Shown: positions 3 through 5,388 of the stretch, piece by piece
Position numbering within the stretch: the first letter of the stretch is position 1
Layout: each line of letters opens with the position of its first letter
Assembly (NCBI GenBank): GCA_030039935.1
Contig: JASHUQ010000101.1
Location: 1-5,807, forward strand
DNA from: Microcaldota archaeon
GTDB lineage: Archaea > Micrarchaeota > Micrarchaeia > Micrarchaeales > Micrarchaeaceae
Reading direction: 5' to 3'
Length of the DNA stretch: 5,807 bases
The notes under the pieces: model-generated
The model's database searches: none
What the model was told of the DNA's origin: nothing
Seen by the model: the letters and a program-made list of their open reading frames with translations, nothing else
Made by a program: the position numbers and the translations under genes

Positions 3-398
3 CCAGAGTTGCATGAAGCATTGAAGAGAGAATGGGTTCAGGTCTCGGAAATAGGACTTCCAAGTTCAGGATATCGAAGAATTGAAGAGGATGGTACTCG
101 TGTGCCTATAGAAGAAGATGAACATAGAAGTCTTAGCAATGAAAAAAGAGGTTATGATTGGAAAGGAACAAAGCCGGTGCTCGCTGCTGTCTACTACCTC
201 ATCAGGGACAGGTACGGTCTGGATGCCTATGCGAACGACAGGGACGACGGTCGTGCTTGGGTGGCTTGCAAAACCAAAGCAACAAAGCCTAGCGCTCAGT
301 TGCTTAGAGAATTTGAAACAAAAATAGACGAAGTTTCACAAGACCTTGTAGATCTAAAAAAGATGGCAAGGCAACTGTTAGTCCAGAACCAAGCTTAA
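3..398 (+). CDS. DGR target protein carrying the variable repeat (5' end outside window)
   Basis: This is the 3' part of the gene diversified by the DGR. The frame is open to the left edge and no convincing start is present: a TTG at 9-11 is in frame but the codons before it are open too, so the N terminus is outside. Counting from the codon at position 9, residues 1-53 are charged and hydrophilic. The VR-encoded segment is residues 55-86, with variable residues Y62, L64, Y69, D72, Y74, D77, G81, W84 and V85. Residues 95-126 form a likely coiled coil, with hydrophobics at 99, 102, 106, 109, 113, 116, 120 and 123 (exact 3-4 heptad spacing). The VR region suggests a ligand-binding surface, as in DGR targets of the C-type-lectin fold, but I cannot assign that fold from this fragment. 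No membrane segment is visible in the part present. The 41-residue tail after the VR is unusual, since DGR VRs usually end the protein. Confidence 0.85.
   Translation, partial: PELHEALKREWVQVSEIGLPSSGYRRIEEDGTRVPIEEDEHRSLSNEKRGYDWKGTKPVLAAVYYLIRDRYGLDAYANDRDDGRAWVACKTKATKPSAQLLREFETKIDEVSQDLVDLKKMARQLLVQNQA
173..266 (+). repeat. DGR variable repeat (VR)
   Basis: The VR aligns to TR 603-699 with one 3-base gap. The first 19 bases (173-191) contain no adenine and are identical to TR 603-621. Mismatches, written TR base to VR base: A to T at 192, 199, 213 and 228; A to C at 198; A to G at 222, 237, 249, 250, 259, 260 and 261. Nine codons change: Asn to Tyr three times, Asn to Asp twice, Asn to Leu, Asn to Gly, stop to Trp and Met to Val. 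Similarity ends after GGCT at 263-266. VR lacks one AAC codon relative to TR near position 198, which keeps the frame. Confidence 0.95.
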
Positions 399-408
399 AT
401 ATAAAAAG
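396..408 (+). promoter_or_regulatory. Candidate archaeal TATA box for TR RNA and RT
   Basis: TAAATATAAAAAG overlaps the target gene's stop codon and fits an archaeal TATA element. A start about 26 bases on would be near 428, just before the hairpin at 434-460, giving a transcript made of the structured region, TR and RT. This is a motif match only. Read-through from the target gene is an equally good explanation for RT expression. Confidence 0.3.
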
Positions 409-433
409 TTAAAACACATACTATTCTTACCCA

Positions 434-460
434 GGTTTGCATGGATTATTCCTGCAAACC
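434..460 (+). repeat. Perfect 8-bp inverted repeat (hairpin) upstream of TR
   Basis: GGTTTGCA (434-441) pairs with TGCAAACC (453-460) around an 11-base loop. It is the first of several inverted repeats between the target gene and TR and could form in DNA or at the 5' end of the TR transcript. It lies 36 bases after the target's stop codon, so it could also act on the 3' end of that mRNA. No long T-tract follows, which argues against a simple terminator. Confidence 0.5.
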
Positions 461-602
461 ATGATATAAATCATGGATGTAAGCCTAGGAGCCACACATC
501 CGTCTATAGCGCTGGTTAACCAGCCATGAAATTCAACAGCGACATGACAACATGAAGCTGTGGTGAGCCAGAAATGGCATATTAATAGACGGGTTACATT
601 GC
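459..602 (+). ncRNA. Possible structured leader of the DGR template RNA
   Basis: No plausible gene fits in 399-602: the ATGs here open frames of fewer than ten codons. Several short complementary arms occur in a row: CCATGA 459-464 with TCATGG 471-476; GGATGT 475-480 with ACATCC 496-501; the 14-base palindrome at 511-524; and ACAGC 536-540 with GCTGT 557-561. The first two are mutually exclusive with neighbours at shared bases (459-460 and 475-476), suggesting alternative folds. In known DGRs the sequence around TR takes part in cDNA priming. That this region does so here is inference. A covariation search across related DGRs is needed to tell structure from chance. Confidence 0.3.
511..524 (+). 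repeat. 14-bp perfect palindrome upstream of TR
   Basis: GCTGGTTAACCAGC is fully self-complementary with no loop, a form more typical of a protein-binding site on DNA than of an RNA hairpin. It lies about 80 bases before TR, outside any gene. Its role is unknown. Confidence 0.45.
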
Positions 603-699
603 GCCGGTGCTCGCTGCTGTCAACTACAACAACATCAGGGACAGGAACGGTCTGAATGCCAATGCGAACAACAGGGACGACAATCGTGCTTAAATGGCT
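603..699 (+). repeat. DGR template repeat (TR)
   Basis: This is the non-coding donor copy of the VR. Read in the VR frame it is rich in Asn codons (AAC/AAT), the usual TR pattern because mutating AAY reaches many residues without making stops. It holds 29 adenines in 97 bases; 27 align to VR bases and 12 of those are changed in VR. A 19-base adenine-free block opens it (603-621). In the VR frame it contains a TAA at 691-693, so it cannot encode the full target. Its 3' half overlaps the first codons of the longest RT reading frame. The similarity edges were set by eye: flanks before 603 and after 699 do not match the VR flanks. Confidence 0.95.
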
Positions 700-1783
700 C
701 CTGCTCACATCCTGGGCAAGCTCGACTGGTAATATTTTGGAAACTTGTACTGATTTGTATTCTTCTTTATGTTCTTATCGGAATCTTGAACTTGCATGGA
801 AAAAGGCAAGGAAGAGAAAGACATTGAAGAAGTATGTTATAGATTTTGAAGCGAATTTGGAAAATAATCTTAAACAGATTAAATACGAGTTGGAAACATT
901 CACTTATTCGCCAGAGCCGCTAGCCACTTTCATAGTAAGAGATCCAAAAACTAGGAGAATAAGCGCTTCTCACTTTAGAGACAGAGTCGTATGCCATGCT
1001 TTATGCAATGTTATAGAACCAATCTTATCTAATGATTTTATCTATGATTCTTTTGCAAATCAGAAACATAAGGGTACACACAAGGCAATCTTGAGATTTG
1101 AAAGTTTTGCACGCAGAGCGAGAGATTTGGGCAGCTGTGCTACCTGTTTTGCGCTAAAGGCCGATATAAAACACTATTTCGACACTGTAAATCATAAAAT
1201 TCTATTACAGATAATCGAATGGAAGATAAGCGATAAGAGCATAATTTGGTTGATAAAAAGGATATTAGCTAATCATAAAATTGGCACCGCAGGGCAAGGA
1301 ATGCCATTAGGAAATCTTACTTCGCAGTTCTTCGCCAACGTTTACCTTAATGAACTAGATCATTACGTTAAATACAAGCTCAGAGTAAAGCATTACATTA
1401 GATATGTGGATGATTTTGTTATACTCCACAGAGATAAAAAGACTTTAAATCAATATAAATTCGAAATTGGCAATTTCTTGAAATCAAATCTAAATATAGA
1501 ACTGCATCCAGAAATGTCAAGAATAATTAGACTTAGAGACGGAGTAACTTTTCTGGGATTTAGAGTATTTCGCAAACACAGGCTACTCAAGAAAAGTAAT
1601 GTAAGAAAAATATGGAGTAGGTTAGAGACGCTCAAGATCAAGAAAGACACAGGAGAAATAAATTTTGAAGATGCTATTAGAAGTCTGAACGGATGGCTTG
1701 CATATGCCAAATTCGCAAATACCTACAAACTAAGAAATAATGTTTATACGAGATTTAACGAACTTTTCTATAAATCTCAATGA
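656..1783 (+). CDS. DGR-type reverse transcriptase
   Basis: RNA-directed DNA polymerase that should copy TR RNA into adenine-mutagenised cDNA for transfer to VR. Numbered from the ATG at 656: RT motif A at 164-180 with catalytic D170; the motif GQGMPLGNLTSQ at 213-224, whose LGxxxSQ form is the DGR hallmark (group II intron and retroviral RTs differ here); catalytic YVDD at 250-253; FLGFRV at 299-304; and a thumb segment around 345-361. RFRDRVV-like sequence near 107-112 and NVIEPI at 118-123 also match DGR RTs. There is no maturase or endonuclease domain. The start is uncertain: ATG 656 lies inside TR and its first 25 or so residues look non-homologous, while family similarity begins near residue 28, where TTG 737 would give 348 residues, a normal DGR RT length. 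No other in-frame ATG precedes the core. It converges on the nucleotidyltransferase gene with 26 bases between stop codons. Confidence 0.95.
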   Translation: MPMRTTGTTIVLKWLLLTSWASSTGNILETCTDLYSSLCSYRNLELAWKKARKRKTLKKYVIDFEANLENNLKQIKYELETFTYSPEPLATFIVRDPKTRRISASHFRDRVVCHALCNVIEPILSNDFIYDSFANQKHKGTHKAILRFESFARRARDLGSCATCFALKADIKHYFDTVNHKILLQIIEWKISDKSIIWLIKRILANHKIGTAGQGMPLGNLTSQFFANVYLNELDHYVKYKLRVKHYIRYVDDFVILHRDKKTLNQYKFEIGNFLKSNLNIELHPEMSRIIRLRDGVTFLGFRVFRKHRLLKKSNVRKIWSRLETLKIKKDTGEINFEDAIRSLNGWLAYAKFANTYKLRNNVYTRFNELFYKSQ

Positions 1784-1809: not shown

Positions 1810-2337
1810 CTAAAATAATGTTTCTAAAATGATCTTTAGATTTGCCTTGAACGCCCTATCGCTTCCTGCACGCGAATATTGTTTTGAGCGCACTGCCACT
1901 CTATTTTTCTTCAATTTGTAAATCTTTATGCAATCTCTTATATCTTCAATATCTGCGTCGCTTCCTCTGCTAATCTTAGAGCATACAATATCTATAGGAT
2001 CTAAAACCTTTAGCGCTATATTCTTAAAATTGGATTTGTAATCGCTTGCCTTGGCAATGTAATCCTTTGGTAAAGCCTCAGAGAATACCATATTTGAACC
2101 ATAGTAGTCGATTGTCACTCCTGGGGCTATTTTTCTGTACAACTTATTGAACTCGTCAAAATCGGTTTTGCCAGGTATGTTGAAATCTATGTCCTTTGTG
2201 GATGCTTTAATGCCTAATAAAGTCATGGCAGTCCCTCCAACTGCGATGAGCAATATTCTGCTGTGCAGTTGCTTATCAAACGGATCTAGTACGGATAATA
2301 GCCTCTCCTTAGAAACTTTTTGCATTGTGTCATCCAT
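1810..2337 (-). CDS. AbiEii/DUF6036-like nucleotidyltransferase, candidate toxin
   Basis: A 175-residue protein with a nucleotidyltransferase signature: GGTAM at 34-38, then KDIDF at 48-52 giving the D49-x-D51 metal-binding pair, and a C-terminal KVLDPIDIV...D-IEDI segment (110-133) typical of this family, where a Lys and acidic residues follow the core. Family members transfer nucleotides or act as toxins: AbiEii is a nucleotidyltransferase toxin, and relatives modify tRNA ends. The start ATG (2335-2337) overlaps the stop of the upstream winged-helix gene by 8 bases, so translation is probably coupled and the two form one operon. No strong ribosome-binding site precedes it. The order, regulator first and nucleotidyltransferase second, matches AbiE pairs. 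Fold and motif are well supported; a toxin role is inference, and it could instead be a housekeeping nucleotidyltransferase. Confidence 0.75.
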   Translation of the reverse strand: MDDTMQKVSKERLLSVLDPFDKQLHSRILLIAVGGTAMTLLGIKASTKDIDFNIPGKTDFDEFNKLYRKIAPGVTIDYYGSNMVFSEALPKDYIAKASDYKSNFKNIALKVLDPIDIVCSKISRGSDADIEDIRDCIKIYKLKKNRVAVRSKQYSRAGSDRAFKANLKIILETLF

Positions 2338-3355
2338 ATTGGAGTATATACTTTCTGATTAGCTTTTTATCGTATGCCTCTTTTTGTTTATATGGTATAA
2401 GTTCTTTTAGTGCGCTAATCTGCAACCCTTTCTCTTTATCCAGAATCTCTTCTAGTGTTGAAATCATGCCATTAAGGGAGTAAAGCAGCTCATGTCTCTT
2501 AAATAGATAGTATAGATAAGGCTTGTTTATCTTTTCAATATTCTTTTTTATCAAGATAAAGGCGCCGTACTTCACCCTTATCTCATCGCTTTTTGCCATC
2601 AAGAGGATTGTGTCCTCTAACGAGATTCTTTTGCCAGGTTTTATGTCTTCATATAAACTATATCCAAATCTGCTATAGTTGTACGCTAATTCAGATTTTT
2701 CTAATTTATCTGGAAATCTCTTCAGATTCTTGTATGTATAATTTATCTTATACATTCTGATTGTTCCCCAGAAACCTTCGCTATTATAAAGTATGTGTTT
2801 ATCGCTGATCAGGTCTTTAATATTATTCAAATCGCCGCTATCCAGCATACTAAAAAGTTCATCAGGAGTCAAGATTATAGGATCAATCTTAGTATTGTGC
2901 AAAAGCTCGAGCTTTAGCATATTGTTTATAAGCCAGCTGTCCTTATTGTGCGATTTTGTTATTAGCAGTAACTCTATCCTGTTGATCTTAATGTGCGTTT
3001 CATACTTCAATGCGCATATCGAAATTGCGCCAGAGTCCAAAGCTAAGTCAAGAAGCCCGTTGCTCATTTCATCAGGAAGATTTATCTCCATGGCTCTGAG
3101 GTTTTCAGCCTCAGAGATGTAATAGATCGCCTTTGGGTTCATTATATTCAGGCTTATCAGCCTGTTTTTGCCTTCCTTAGTAATGAATATTATGCCAGCT
3201 TTTTCCAACTTTATTATCGCATTATAGATATTTGGGTAATAAGTAGACTTATAGATATTTCCTATCTCCTCCGATGCACTAAGTATGCTGCCTCCGCTGC
3301 CCAAGTTATCAGAAAGATAATGCATTATCCTTGTCTGCTCTCTAGTCATGAGCAT
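2330..3355 (-). CDS. Winged-helix protein with degenerate nucleotidyltransferase core, candidate antitoxin/regulator
   Basis: A 341-residue protein, first gene of the minus-strand pair. Residues 4-72 look like a winged helix-turn-helix: helices near 5-18 and 24-33, a recognition helix near 39-53, then a beta wing at 55-70. Residues 108-171 read like a nucleotidyltransferase core that has lost its active site: the usual GSxxxG is missing and the D-x-D strand is RIELLLIT (R126, E128), yet the later strand IDPIILTPDEL (157-167) is kept. Residues 210-340 are probably helical and I do not recognise them. The layout (winged helix first, overlapping nucleotidyltransferase second) resembles AbiEi-AbiEii, where AbiEi represses the operon and neutralises the toxin. 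The start could be the ATG at 3353-3355 or at 3347-3349; a GTGA sits just upstream and is better spaced for the second. Gene and winged helix are likely; the antitoxin role is inferred. Confidence 0.65.
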   Translation of the reverse strand: MLMTREQTRIMHYLSDNLGSGGSILSASEEIGNIYKSTYYPNIYNAIIKLEKAGIIFITKEGKNRLISLNIMNPKAIYYISEAENLRAMEINLPDEMSNGLLDLALDSGAISICALKYETHIKINRIELLLITKSHNKDSWLINNMLKLELLHNTKIDPIILTPDELFSMLDSGDLNNIKDLISDKHILYNSEGFWGTIRMYKINYTYKNLKRFPDKLEKSELAYNYSRFGYSLYEDIKPGKRISLEDTILLMAKSDEIRVKYGAFILIKKNIEKINKPYLYYLFKRHELLYSLNGMISTLEEILDKEKGLQISALKELIPYKQKEAYDKKLIRKYILQYG

Positions 3356-3488: not shown

Positions 3489-4946
3489 ATGTTCATATAC
3501 AACACTTTGACAAGGTCAAAGGAAACATTCAAGGCAATCAAGTCCGGAAATGTCGGCCTCTACACATGCGGCAGTACCGTCTATTTCTATTCACATATAG
3601 GGAACATGAGAACATATGTTCAGGAAGATGTGCTGAAGAGAGTTCTAAAGCACGAAGGCTATAATGTAAAGCACATCCAGAACATAACAGATGTTGGCCA
3701 TCTTGTCAGCGATGCAGATGAAGGAGAAGATAAACTAAGGCTTGAATCAGAAAAAGAGCACAAAAGCATGGCACAGATAGCCGACTTTTACACAAAGGCG
3801 TTTCTCAAGGATCTCGATTCGCTTAACATAATCCTTCCAAGCGTAATGCCAAAGGCAACAGAGCATATTCCCGATATGATAGCGCTTGTAAAAGAACTTG
3901 AAGAAAAAGGCTTCATATACAGGGCAAAAGATGGGATGTACTTTGATACGTCTAAGTTTGATGGATATGGTGCACTTACCGGGATGAGCTTTGAAAGGCT
4001 CAACAATGAATTGAAAGGCGGTGCACGTGTAAAGATGATAGAAGGAAAGAGGAACATAACAGATTTTGTTGTATGGAGATTCGCCCATGGAAATGAGACA
4101 GAGATGATATGGGATTCTCCGTGGGGAAGAGGATTTCCAGGCTGGCACATCGAGTGCAGCGCCATGTCAATGAAATACCTCGGAGAGCACTTTGACATGC
4201 ACTGTGGGGGAATAGACCATATTGCAATACATCACACGAACGAGATCGCCCAATCAGAAGGAGCGACGGGCAGGAAATTCGTTAATTACTGGGTTCATAC
4301 GAACTTCCTTAACATTAACGGAAGGAAGATAGCAAAGTCAGAGGGGGATTTGTATACTGTGCAATATATAATCGATAAGGGATACTCCCAGCAAGCGATA
4401 AGGCTTTTCCTTATTTCCGGGCATTATAGGCAGAGCCTGAATTTCACTTTCGAGGCCCTCGGCAATACGGAAAACACGCTTATCGGAATCTACTCTTTTC
4501 TTGAAAGAGTGTCTGAGATAAACGAGCAAGAAGAAAAAGATGATCCGGAATTCATGAAAAAGGTAAAGATTCTTCAAGAATCGTTCTTCAAGAGCATGTC
4601 CGATGATATGAACATATCGGAAGCGCTCTCCTCAATGCACTCCATTATAAAAGAGGCGAATACAAGGATGGCGTCGCATAAAATGACAAAAAGCGAGGCA
4701 AAAGCAGTAATAGATGCGATGCTTGAGATAGACACTGTATTGGGCCTTGACTTCAATAAGTACACACATAGAAGGAAGCAGTCCCTTGCCCTTGAAATAC
4801 AGGCACTTGTGGACGAGAGGGAGAACGCAAGGAAAACAAGGAATTTCAAGAGAGCCGATGAGATAAGAGACATGCTGAAGAAAAAATATGGGGTCATGCT
4901 TGAAGATACAGACAAAGGTGTAAGATGGAAGGTTGAAAAGGGGTAA
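3489..4946 (+). CDS. cysS: Cysteinyl-tRNA synthetase
   Basis: Class I aminoacyl-tRNA synthetase that activates cysteine with ATP and charges tRNA-Cys in the cytoplasm. The 485 residues carry all the key features: HIGH-type motif HIGN at 36-39; zinc ligands C27, C223, H248 and E252, whose spacing equals that of the E. coli enzyme (28, 209, 234, 238); the KMSKS loop as KIAKS at 280-284; and the family stretches DVGHLVSDADEGEDK at 68-82 and GWHIECS at 218-224. A C-terminal helical tRNA-binding region follows, and the length is close to the usual 460-490. The ATG at 3489 gives the standard start (FIYNTLTRSKE); the ATG at 3484 is in another frame and soon stops. A single-copy housekeeping gene, it probably marks the stable chromosomal side of the accessory block. 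The next gene starts 46 bases on with its own promoter. Confidence 0.98.
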   Translation: MFIYNTLTRSKETFKAIKSGNVGLYTCGSTVYFYSHIGNMRTYVQEDVLKRVLKHEGYNVKHIQNITDVGHLVSDADEGEDKLRLESEKEHKSMAQIADFYTKAFLKDLDSLNIILPSVMPKATEHIPDMIALVKELEEKGFIYRAKDGMYFDTSKFDGYGALTGMSFERLNNELKGGARVKMIEGKRNITDFVVWRFAHGNETEMIWDSPWGRGFPGWHIECSAMSMKYLGEHFDMHCGGIDHIAIHHTNEIAQSEGATGRKFVNYWVHTNFLNINGRKIAKSEGDLYTVQYIIDKGYSQQAIRLFLISGHYRQSLNFTFEALGNTENTLIGIYSFLERVSEINEQEEKDDPEFMKKVKILQESFFKSMSDDMNISEALSSMHSIIKEANTRMASHKMTKSEAKAVIDAMLEIDTVLGLDFNKYTHRRKQSLALEIQALVDERENARKTRNFKRADEIRDMLKKKYGVMLEDTDKGVRWKVEKG

Positions 4947-4953
4947 GCGAAAG

Positions 4954-4964
4954 GCATATAAATA
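4954..4964 (+). promoter_or_regulatory. TATA box of the small membrane protein gene
   Basis: GCATATAAATA lies between the cysS stop and the next start. Counting 26 bases from its centre puts transcription near 4986, seven bases before ATG 4993. Its place inside a longer possible reading frame from 4933 argues that the 20-residue extension encoded there is not translated. Confidence 0.5.
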
Positions 4965-4992
4965 TGGCGTTTGCAGTATAAGCGATAGTGAT

Positions 4993-5388
4993 ATGATGAA
5001 AGGATTGCAAAGACTGTACTCTGGCGTAAACCTCAAGAAGACGGTATTCCTTTTGACAGTATCAATAATATTGTCAAATCTTGTACTATCTGTGAGCTAC
5101 GCTAATCTAACATCGAGCATAACAACCACAATATGCCAGATATTCAATACAATACACTCTGTCATATTCGTTCTGGGTCTTGCACTCATGGTCGTAGGGG
5201 CTGCCCTATACGCAGCTGGTAATGTGATGCCAAGCGACCAGAAGAGTCAGGTACAAGGCTATGGAATGAGCATGATATTCGGAGGAGTGATTGGAGTGAT
5301 AATAGCATTGGCTGCACCCGCAATACTGTCCATAATAAGCGGGCAGGCGAGCATAGCAGCATCGTGCTCAGGCGCAGGATTGCTCTAA
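4993..5388 (+). CDS. Small secreted/membrane protein, VirB2/TrbC pilin-like layout
   Basis: A protein of 131 residues that I cannot name with certainty. Residues 14-37 form a positively charged then hydrophobic N terminus ending in SYA, a good signal-peptide cleavage site after A37. Two further membrane segments lie at about 55-76 and 92-115, separated by a short polar loop (77-91, NVMPSDQKSQVQGYG). The mature protein would be about 94 residues with two membrane spans, which is the layout of VirB2/TrbC-type pilins. C48 and C125 would both face outside and could form a disulfide. A longer frame from ATG 4933 overlaps cysS and its own TATA box, so 4993 (or the adjacent ATG 4996) is preferred; GTGAT precedes it directly. 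No other secretion gene is visible, so the pilin idea is a layout match only. It could equally be a lineage-specific envelope protein. Confidence 0.75.
   Translation: MMKGLQRLYSGVNLKKTVFLLTVSIILSNLVLSVSYANLTSSITTTICQIFNTIHSVIFVLGLALMVVGAALYAAGNVMPSDQKSQVQGYGMSMIFGGVIGVIIALAAPAILSIISGQASIAASCSGAGLL

Follow-up and report, generated by a model that had tools for sequence, protein, structure and literature searches.

How does a cell keep in check an enzyme that goes on replacing variants that work well? To our knowledge, this question is largely open for diversity-generating retroelements (DGRs), and it is raised here by a DGR on contig JASHUQ010000101.1 of assembly GCA_030039935.1. The stretch analyzed, hereafter the window, is the whole of that contig (C117; 5,807 bases), one piece of a 711,578-base assembly with 88% completeness and 1.35% contamination. 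The explanation that best fits the data as a whole, and one that we hold with high confidence, is that the window carries a Micrarchaeota DGR with two targets and that the reverse transcriptases (RTs) of its relatives are phase-switched by simple repeats. That DPANN archaea more generally gate targeted hypermutation by RT phase variation, with repeats gained and lost repeatedly at several positions, including the junction of Avd and RT, and with the window lacking a switch, seems to us probable. The new part of the result is the repeat-interrupted RTs of the relatives, not the DGR of the window itself.

From left to right, the window holds a cut target gene containing a variable repeat (VR1), an RT-16 RNA, the template repeat (TR), which begins at the next base, and the RT gene, all on the plus strand. 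VR1 (173 to 266; 94 nucleotides) aligns with the TR (603 to 699; 97 nucleotides) with a single 3-nucleotide gap in VR1. Our re-alignment gave the same counts as the initial annotation of the window: 12 mismatches in 94 aligned positions, each of them at one of the 27 TR adenines in the alignment. The hypergeometric chance of this pattern is 3.6e-8, or 1.7e-6 without the three 3'-terminal adenines, and none of the 49 non-adenine positions differs in the 76-nucleotide block that was scored. The annotation had read the locus as a complete archaeal DGR. The adenine-only TR/VR pair and a DGR-type RT bear out the DGR part of that call, and the archaeal origin is upheld by a tree of 123 RTs, in which the window's RT lies within a Micrarchaeota set of 30 (SH-like approximate likelihood ratio support of 98), next to that of locus L192. 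The host is a member of the Micrarchaeota (DPANN). "Complete" was too strong, as the local target is cut at the contig end and Avd has no match; the RT-16 RNA, the remote VR, the end mark of the repeats, and the repeats in the relatives' RTs had been overlooked.

A scan of the genome with a TR-derived pattern in which adenines were left free found a second variable repeat (VR2) in the same assembly, on the minus strand of contig C23 (3511 to 3604 of locus L005). VR2 differs from the TR at 15 positions, all of them TR adenines (P = 1.9e-10), and the 10 positions at which VR1 and VR2 differ from each other are likewise all TR adenines. The window's element thereby gains a second target gene, which is remote and lies on contig C23. 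Each VR is 3 nucleotides shorter than the TR, and at the same place; therefore, the stretch around the gap would not have been rewritten since TR and VR diverged in length. Adenine-directed pairs are not confined to the window: when one base was left free across 30 Micrarchaeota loci, a score of at least 25 was reached in 24 loci with A, compared with 5, 8, and 9 loci with C, G, and T, respectively.

The 3' ends of the two repeats differ in a constant way. The TR ends with AAATG (AAA of TAAATGG at 692 to 694, plus strand) where the VR has GGGTG (GGG of GGGTGG at 259 to 261, plus strand). Across 22 loci, the terminal A(A)ATG of the TR became G(G)GTG in the VR at all 56 adenines, while internal TR adenines were changed in 268 of 480 cases (153 to G, 103 to T, and 12 to C). 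Because this end mark is constant across loci, three of the 12 differences between the window's TR and VR1 are part of a fixed mark and not random mutation. The mark agrees with the initiation of mutagenic homing (IMH) sequence TGGGGT and its TR counterpart IMH*, TGGAAT, given for nanoarchaeal DGRs in the available part of Paul et al. 2015 (PMC4372165). The same part of that paper describes a GRA-loop hairpin behind the VR; the window's counterpart (250 to 330) is not above chance (z = -0.40; 62 of 200 shuffles equally good).

The RT itself was said to follow the TR directly and to carry the motifs LGNLTSQ and YVDD. Both motifs are present, and the adjacency stands in a refined form: the open frame (656 to 1783) begins inside the TR, and the likely start is TTG at 737, because the frames of relatives begin there, which gives a gene at 737 to 1783 on the plus strand. 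Its frame is intact, and its product matches PF00078 (RVT_1; 2.1e-19) and phrog_1423, "Reverse transcriptase" (1e-114). The closest PDB sequence is 8ub7 (1.3e-42), followed by a group II RT (2.1e-21). An AlphaFold2 model of the homologue P0029, built with 38 other sequences (predicted local distance difference test score [pLDDT] of 84), had five DGR RT structures at the top of its Foldseek matches, followed by group II RTs. Sequence and predicted fold both indicate that the window's RT is of the DGR type. The only stretch of at least three residues with a pLDDT under 50 in this model is the loop before RT motif A (residues 131 to 144). In the window, the loop before motif A (1118 to 1150, plus strand) is short, in frame, and repeat free. 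Avd, an accessory protein that not all DGRs have and that the DGR of Bordetella phage BPP-1 uses, was detected in none of the seven open reading frames of the window and nowhere in its genome, although the same genome search was silent in control genomes too. Avd is named in the accessible part of PMC8867640. A viral origin of the element was considered and set aside, with a scan of viral contigs returning only two relatives, 48% and 27% identical.

Between the target gene and the TR lies a match to RT-16 (Rfam RF03019; 459 to 602, plus strand), retrieved by a covariance model with 62.9 bits (gathering score, 50); two other searches placed it at 430 to 602 with 66.8 bits. RT-16 is an RNA that occurs near RT genes. 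In the first search for relatives, it was present at 15 of 19 RT loci, and in 12 of these 15 (window included) the sequence 3' of it is the TR, as confirmed by a VR match. The other three are L189 and L194, which gave no VR match, and L025, which fell outside the VR check. RT-16 was also found at 11 of 15 RT loci taken from other records, not always adjoining the RT. Within the phylum, 38 of 301 genomes contain it, 35 of them above the cutoff. We infer that RT-16 is the 5' leader of the DGR template RNA, an assignment that would link an RNA family so far known just by a number with archaeal DGRs, as part of their template RNA; no mention of "RT-16 RNA" was found in the open-licence literature searched. 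RT-16 also occurs with no RT nearby (L154 in genome G002, L176 in genome G004, L177, L178, and others). G002 and G004 belong to the window's genus, and the RT search gave no match in either genome. Loci L165, L166, and L180 have RT-16 without a nearby RT yet retain a TR and a VR.

Among 49 Micrarchaeota loci examined, 30 have both RT halves, and the other 19 hold either RT-16 without a nearby RT or an RT that is cut or partial. A simple repeat occupies the loop just before motif A in 22 of the 30 RT loci: a run of 8 to 11 G in 16 of them, C9 in one, and an AG repeat in five. Eighteen of these 22 genes are out of frame (11 by +1 and 7 by -1), three are in frame (L153, L156, and L174), and one is degenerate (L194). 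The eight RTs that lack a repeat, among them the window's, are all in frame. With L194 omitted and L152 scored as out of frame despite an NN join in its loop, 18/21 repeat-bearing RTs are out of frame versus 0/8 repeat-free RTs (Fisher P = 3.8e-5), and the in-frame share of the repeat-bearing genes (3/21) lies below one third (P = 0.046). Such repeats (at least 8 G or C, or at least 5 AG) are concentrated at this gene: all 24 that occur in the 303,424 bases fetched lie within or next to an RT. Runs of G9 or longer were found in 16 of 21 whole genomes, with the RT repeat being the sole such run in nine of the 16, and a relative of the RT was absent from the ten other G9 places in these genomes (best tblastn E value of 0.92). 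A simple repeat was looked for in the window's RT and none is present; because its coding frame lacks one, it is not classed as phase variable.

The out-of-frame genes carry signs of past activity. A VR was located for 16 of the 18 loci, with none near L152 and L189. In these 16, 255 of 403 TR adenines differ from the VR, compared with 3 of 931 other bases, the latter being a lower bound because the alignment rule penalizes mismatches at bases other than A. Both RT halves appear constrained, with dN/dS at or below 0.11 in 8 of 16 comparisons and the other 8 saturated, and internal stops are absent from both halves in 17 of the 18 loci (L167 has one in its C-half). Judged from these patterns, the out-of-frame Micrarchaeota RTs have probably been working. 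Several readings of the split genes were rejected or disfavored. An intein or intron does not fit: only a short loop with a simple repeat separates the two halves, and there is no added domain. A designed two-chain RT is disfavored, as called C-half starts vary between proteins and the two halves adjoin at the repeat, and the presence of both offsets disfavors a single fixed programmed frameshift.

Traces of changing repeat length were sought among proteins and scaffolds. A search with C-half sequences found 6,480 proteins, and the best 120 were taken: 39 of them have at least 320 residues and 81 are shorter, and the loop of the 39 long proteins reads GGG in 13 and RERER in two. Some C-halves are identical in a long and a short protein, as in P0015 (361 residues) and P0053 (210 residues), which share 208 residues, and the C-halves of P0050 and P0047 are identical over 211 residues. 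These long/short pairs are suggestive only, because a contig edge could create short forms. At L152, one scaffold carries two copies of the same flank, one with G9 and the other with G11, across an NN join, and the contig end at L157 falls inside its G run. Switching of repeat length within one population is thus only hinted at. On sequence grounds, the relatives' RTs, which combine coding repeats with both frame states, are candidate phase-variable (contingency) genes.

We also looked beyond the Micrarchaeota. RTs of this kind occur in 112 of 371 genomes drawn from another phylum. Twenty loci with partial RT matches were fetched, having been chosen for being partial; the repeat lies in the loop before GMPLGNLTSQ in 16, behind YVDD in two, and is missing from two. 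Eighteen of the 20 gave a candidate pair of repeats, and an adenine-directed TR/VR pair was accepted in 16; those of L220 and L225 were not accepted as TR/VR, and L214 and L222 gave none. In a list that favored intact matches, 17 of 74 DPANN loci have a repeat in or within 150 nucleotides of the RT, at several positions; these loci span 691,174 bases, in which another nine repeats occur at other places. No repeat was found in 80 RT loci of viral contigs, which were found with phage RTs and whose TR/VR are unexamined (17/74 versus 0/80; P = 1.3e-6). The junction of Avd and RT is one of the positions used: L088 reads Avd and RT in one frame through a G11 run. In L053 and L108, a G run at this junction separates Avd and RT genes that lie in different frames, and the RT has its own ATG behind the run.

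On the 123-RT tree, the repeat states require at least 29 changes, where 6 is the minimum for 7 states, under sampling that is uneven; this count takes L212 (G6 only) and L084 (G7 only) as repeat bearing, and the RTs of L077 and L078 are identical. Because the window's repeat-free RT stands beside repeat-bearing ones on the tree, loss of a switch is likely in the window, and gain elsewhere is possible. Separately, the RT gene of L230 (G354:C5) contains a run of 27 G (tract at 1917), by far the longest, which may be artificial. Long G runs also lie approximately 350 to 550 nucleotides upstream of the RT match in L083 (365), L114 (5652), L116 (1756), and L118 (597), with that of L116 directly before RT-16; these upstream runs could lie in target or accessory genes.

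We propose that the RNA from RT-16 through the TR serves as the template, which the RT would copy with errors at adenines. The copies would be written into the variable repeats of the local and remote target genes, with the AAATG/GGGTG difference at the repeat ends directing transfer from TR to VR, as IMH* and IMH do in known DGRs. In the wider family, repeats within the RT gene would change length during replication and place the RT in frame (on) or out of frame (off), such that cells would go through bursts of diversification, each followed by retention of a variant. Being repeat free, the RT gene of the window would be always readable. If true, a random genetic switch on a mutator would supply an answer to the question of restraint in a large group of archaea that are uncultured. 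It would also constitute a two-layer form of bet-hedging, in which the hypermutability of one gene depends on a repeat that is itself hypermutable.

The main rival to a phase switch is slippage during expression. Under this explanation, the relatives' repeats cause programmed ribosomal frameshifting or transcriptional slippage, and a little full-length RT is always made, with no DNA switch. It would account for the finding that out-of-frame alleles predominate among those with a repeat (the in-frame share below one third noted above) and yet their VRs show RT activity, and G runs are slippery in principle. We nevertheless consider it unlikely: with both offsets present (11 and 7 loci) and AG, CT, and C repeats beside the G runs, no single slip fits; an RT with its own ATG behind a repeat at the Avd-RT junction argues against it, as do two repeat lengths on one scaffold (L152). 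Far less credible is a reading in which the out-of-frame genes are pseudogenes in decay, or in which sequencing or assembly errors created the repeats. The degenerate L194, the extra stop in the C-half of L167, the possibly artificial run of L230, and the fact that the homopolymer consensus of a metagenome-assembled genome can be off by one all lend this reading something, but decay is hard to reconcile with the low dN/dS where it can be estimated, the stop-free halves of 17 loci, and TR/VR identity at 928 of 931 non-adenine sites. Error, in turn, would have to explain why 24 of 24 repeats fall in or at an RT, why in-frame forms exist, and why the viral loci have none.

Phase switching of the relatives' RTs remains our preferred explanation, and two further alternatives concern the window alone. 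Its element could be a fossil, with an intact RT and VRs that are no longer rewritten. The 3-base length difference between the TR and both VRs would suit a fossil, as would target paralogues on contigs C36 and C37 with no TR in the assembly and the same-genus genomes G002 and G004, which have an RT-16 match without an RT match. The intact RT frame, the lack of any TR/VR1 difference at 49 non-adenine positions, and the restriction of VR1/VR2 differences to TR adenines speak against it, and we regard the fossil as doubtful. The other alternative, that the repeat pair is incidental and the RT is really that of a group II intron, a retron, or a defense system, we judge next to negligible. Group II, Drt, and retron models do match the window's RT (TIGR04416 at 157.7 bits, with a cutoff of 300), and so do the RT and DRT models of PADLOC, which are generic. 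DGR RTs lead in both sequence and fold, however, and the TR/VR differences are adenine only; retron, group II, and defense RTs were rejected accordingly as candidates.

The local target gene (3 to 398, plus strand) is 5' truncated because the window is the entire contig; 131 codons remain, of which 43 form a tail behind VR1. Its full-length paralogue on contig C23, P0001, has a predicted C-type-lectin fold with weak fold-search support, and P0001 itself was its only homologue at an E value of 0.001. On the basis of this model, the window's targets may be lectin-like binding proteins with a randomized ligand surface. Of the 26 Micrarchaeota VR genes that were examined, 25 have a tail of at least 40 codons behind the VR (L160 has 5); these tails are often helical looking, with similar endings (e.g., LRIKE). 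Two more target-like genes lie in the window's assembly, on contigs C37 (L008 and L231) and C36 (L232), with VR-like stretches that are 72% alike; the C37 tail is similar to that of P0001. A DNA search of the genome for a TR belonging to these two paralogues matched only those two places.

Comparison with known systems places the window's DGR in familiar company. The nanoarchaeal DGRs of clade DUSEL4 are alike in residing in DPANN-type cells, in having adenine-directed VRs, orphan targets, and several targets, and in leaving partial DGR loci elsewhere in the genome; they differ in that neither simple repeats in the RT nor RT-16 is reported in the available part of the paper (PMC4372165). The BPP-1 DGR (PDB 8ub7 series) shares the RT fold and the TR/VR logic. 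Unlike BPP-1, the window has RT-16 5' of the TR, targets on two contigs, and no Avd match, and its relatives have repeat-bearing RTs. AvpA-type archaeal variable proteins, as described in the available part of PMC5006420, are likewise archaeal DGR targets with a C-type-lectin fold and without close sequence relatives. The lectin fold of P0001, by contrast, is only predicted, tails of 43 to 47 residues follow the VR, and a comparison with PDB sequences gave no match to an AvpA-type chain. RT-16 matches in the window above its curated score and is placed here as a leader abutting a DGR template. Typical bacterial contingency genes switch surface structures or methylases. The relatives' RTs share with them coding G, C, or AG repeats, frames broken in both directions, and intact flanks; unlike in these bacterial cases, the gene under the switch would encode an archaeal enzyme for targeted mutation. 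The open-licence literature searched contained no report of DGR phase variation by RT repeats, of DGRs with slipped-strand mechanisms, or of Micrarchaeota with phase variation. The one mention of phase variation in the accessible part of PMC10053308 concerns the host of phage BPP-1.

Two other regions of the window drew attention. On the minus strand, a DUF6036 nucleotidyltransferase gene overlaps a 341-codon gene without a Pfam match (1810 to 2337 and 2330 to 3355), a layout that we take to resemble a nucleotidyltransferase toxin-antitoxin pair; PADLOC gave no match to this pair. A small TrbC/VirB2-like membrane protein is encoded at 4933 to 5388, behind cysS (PF04956; 1.3e-5, slightly under the cutoff).

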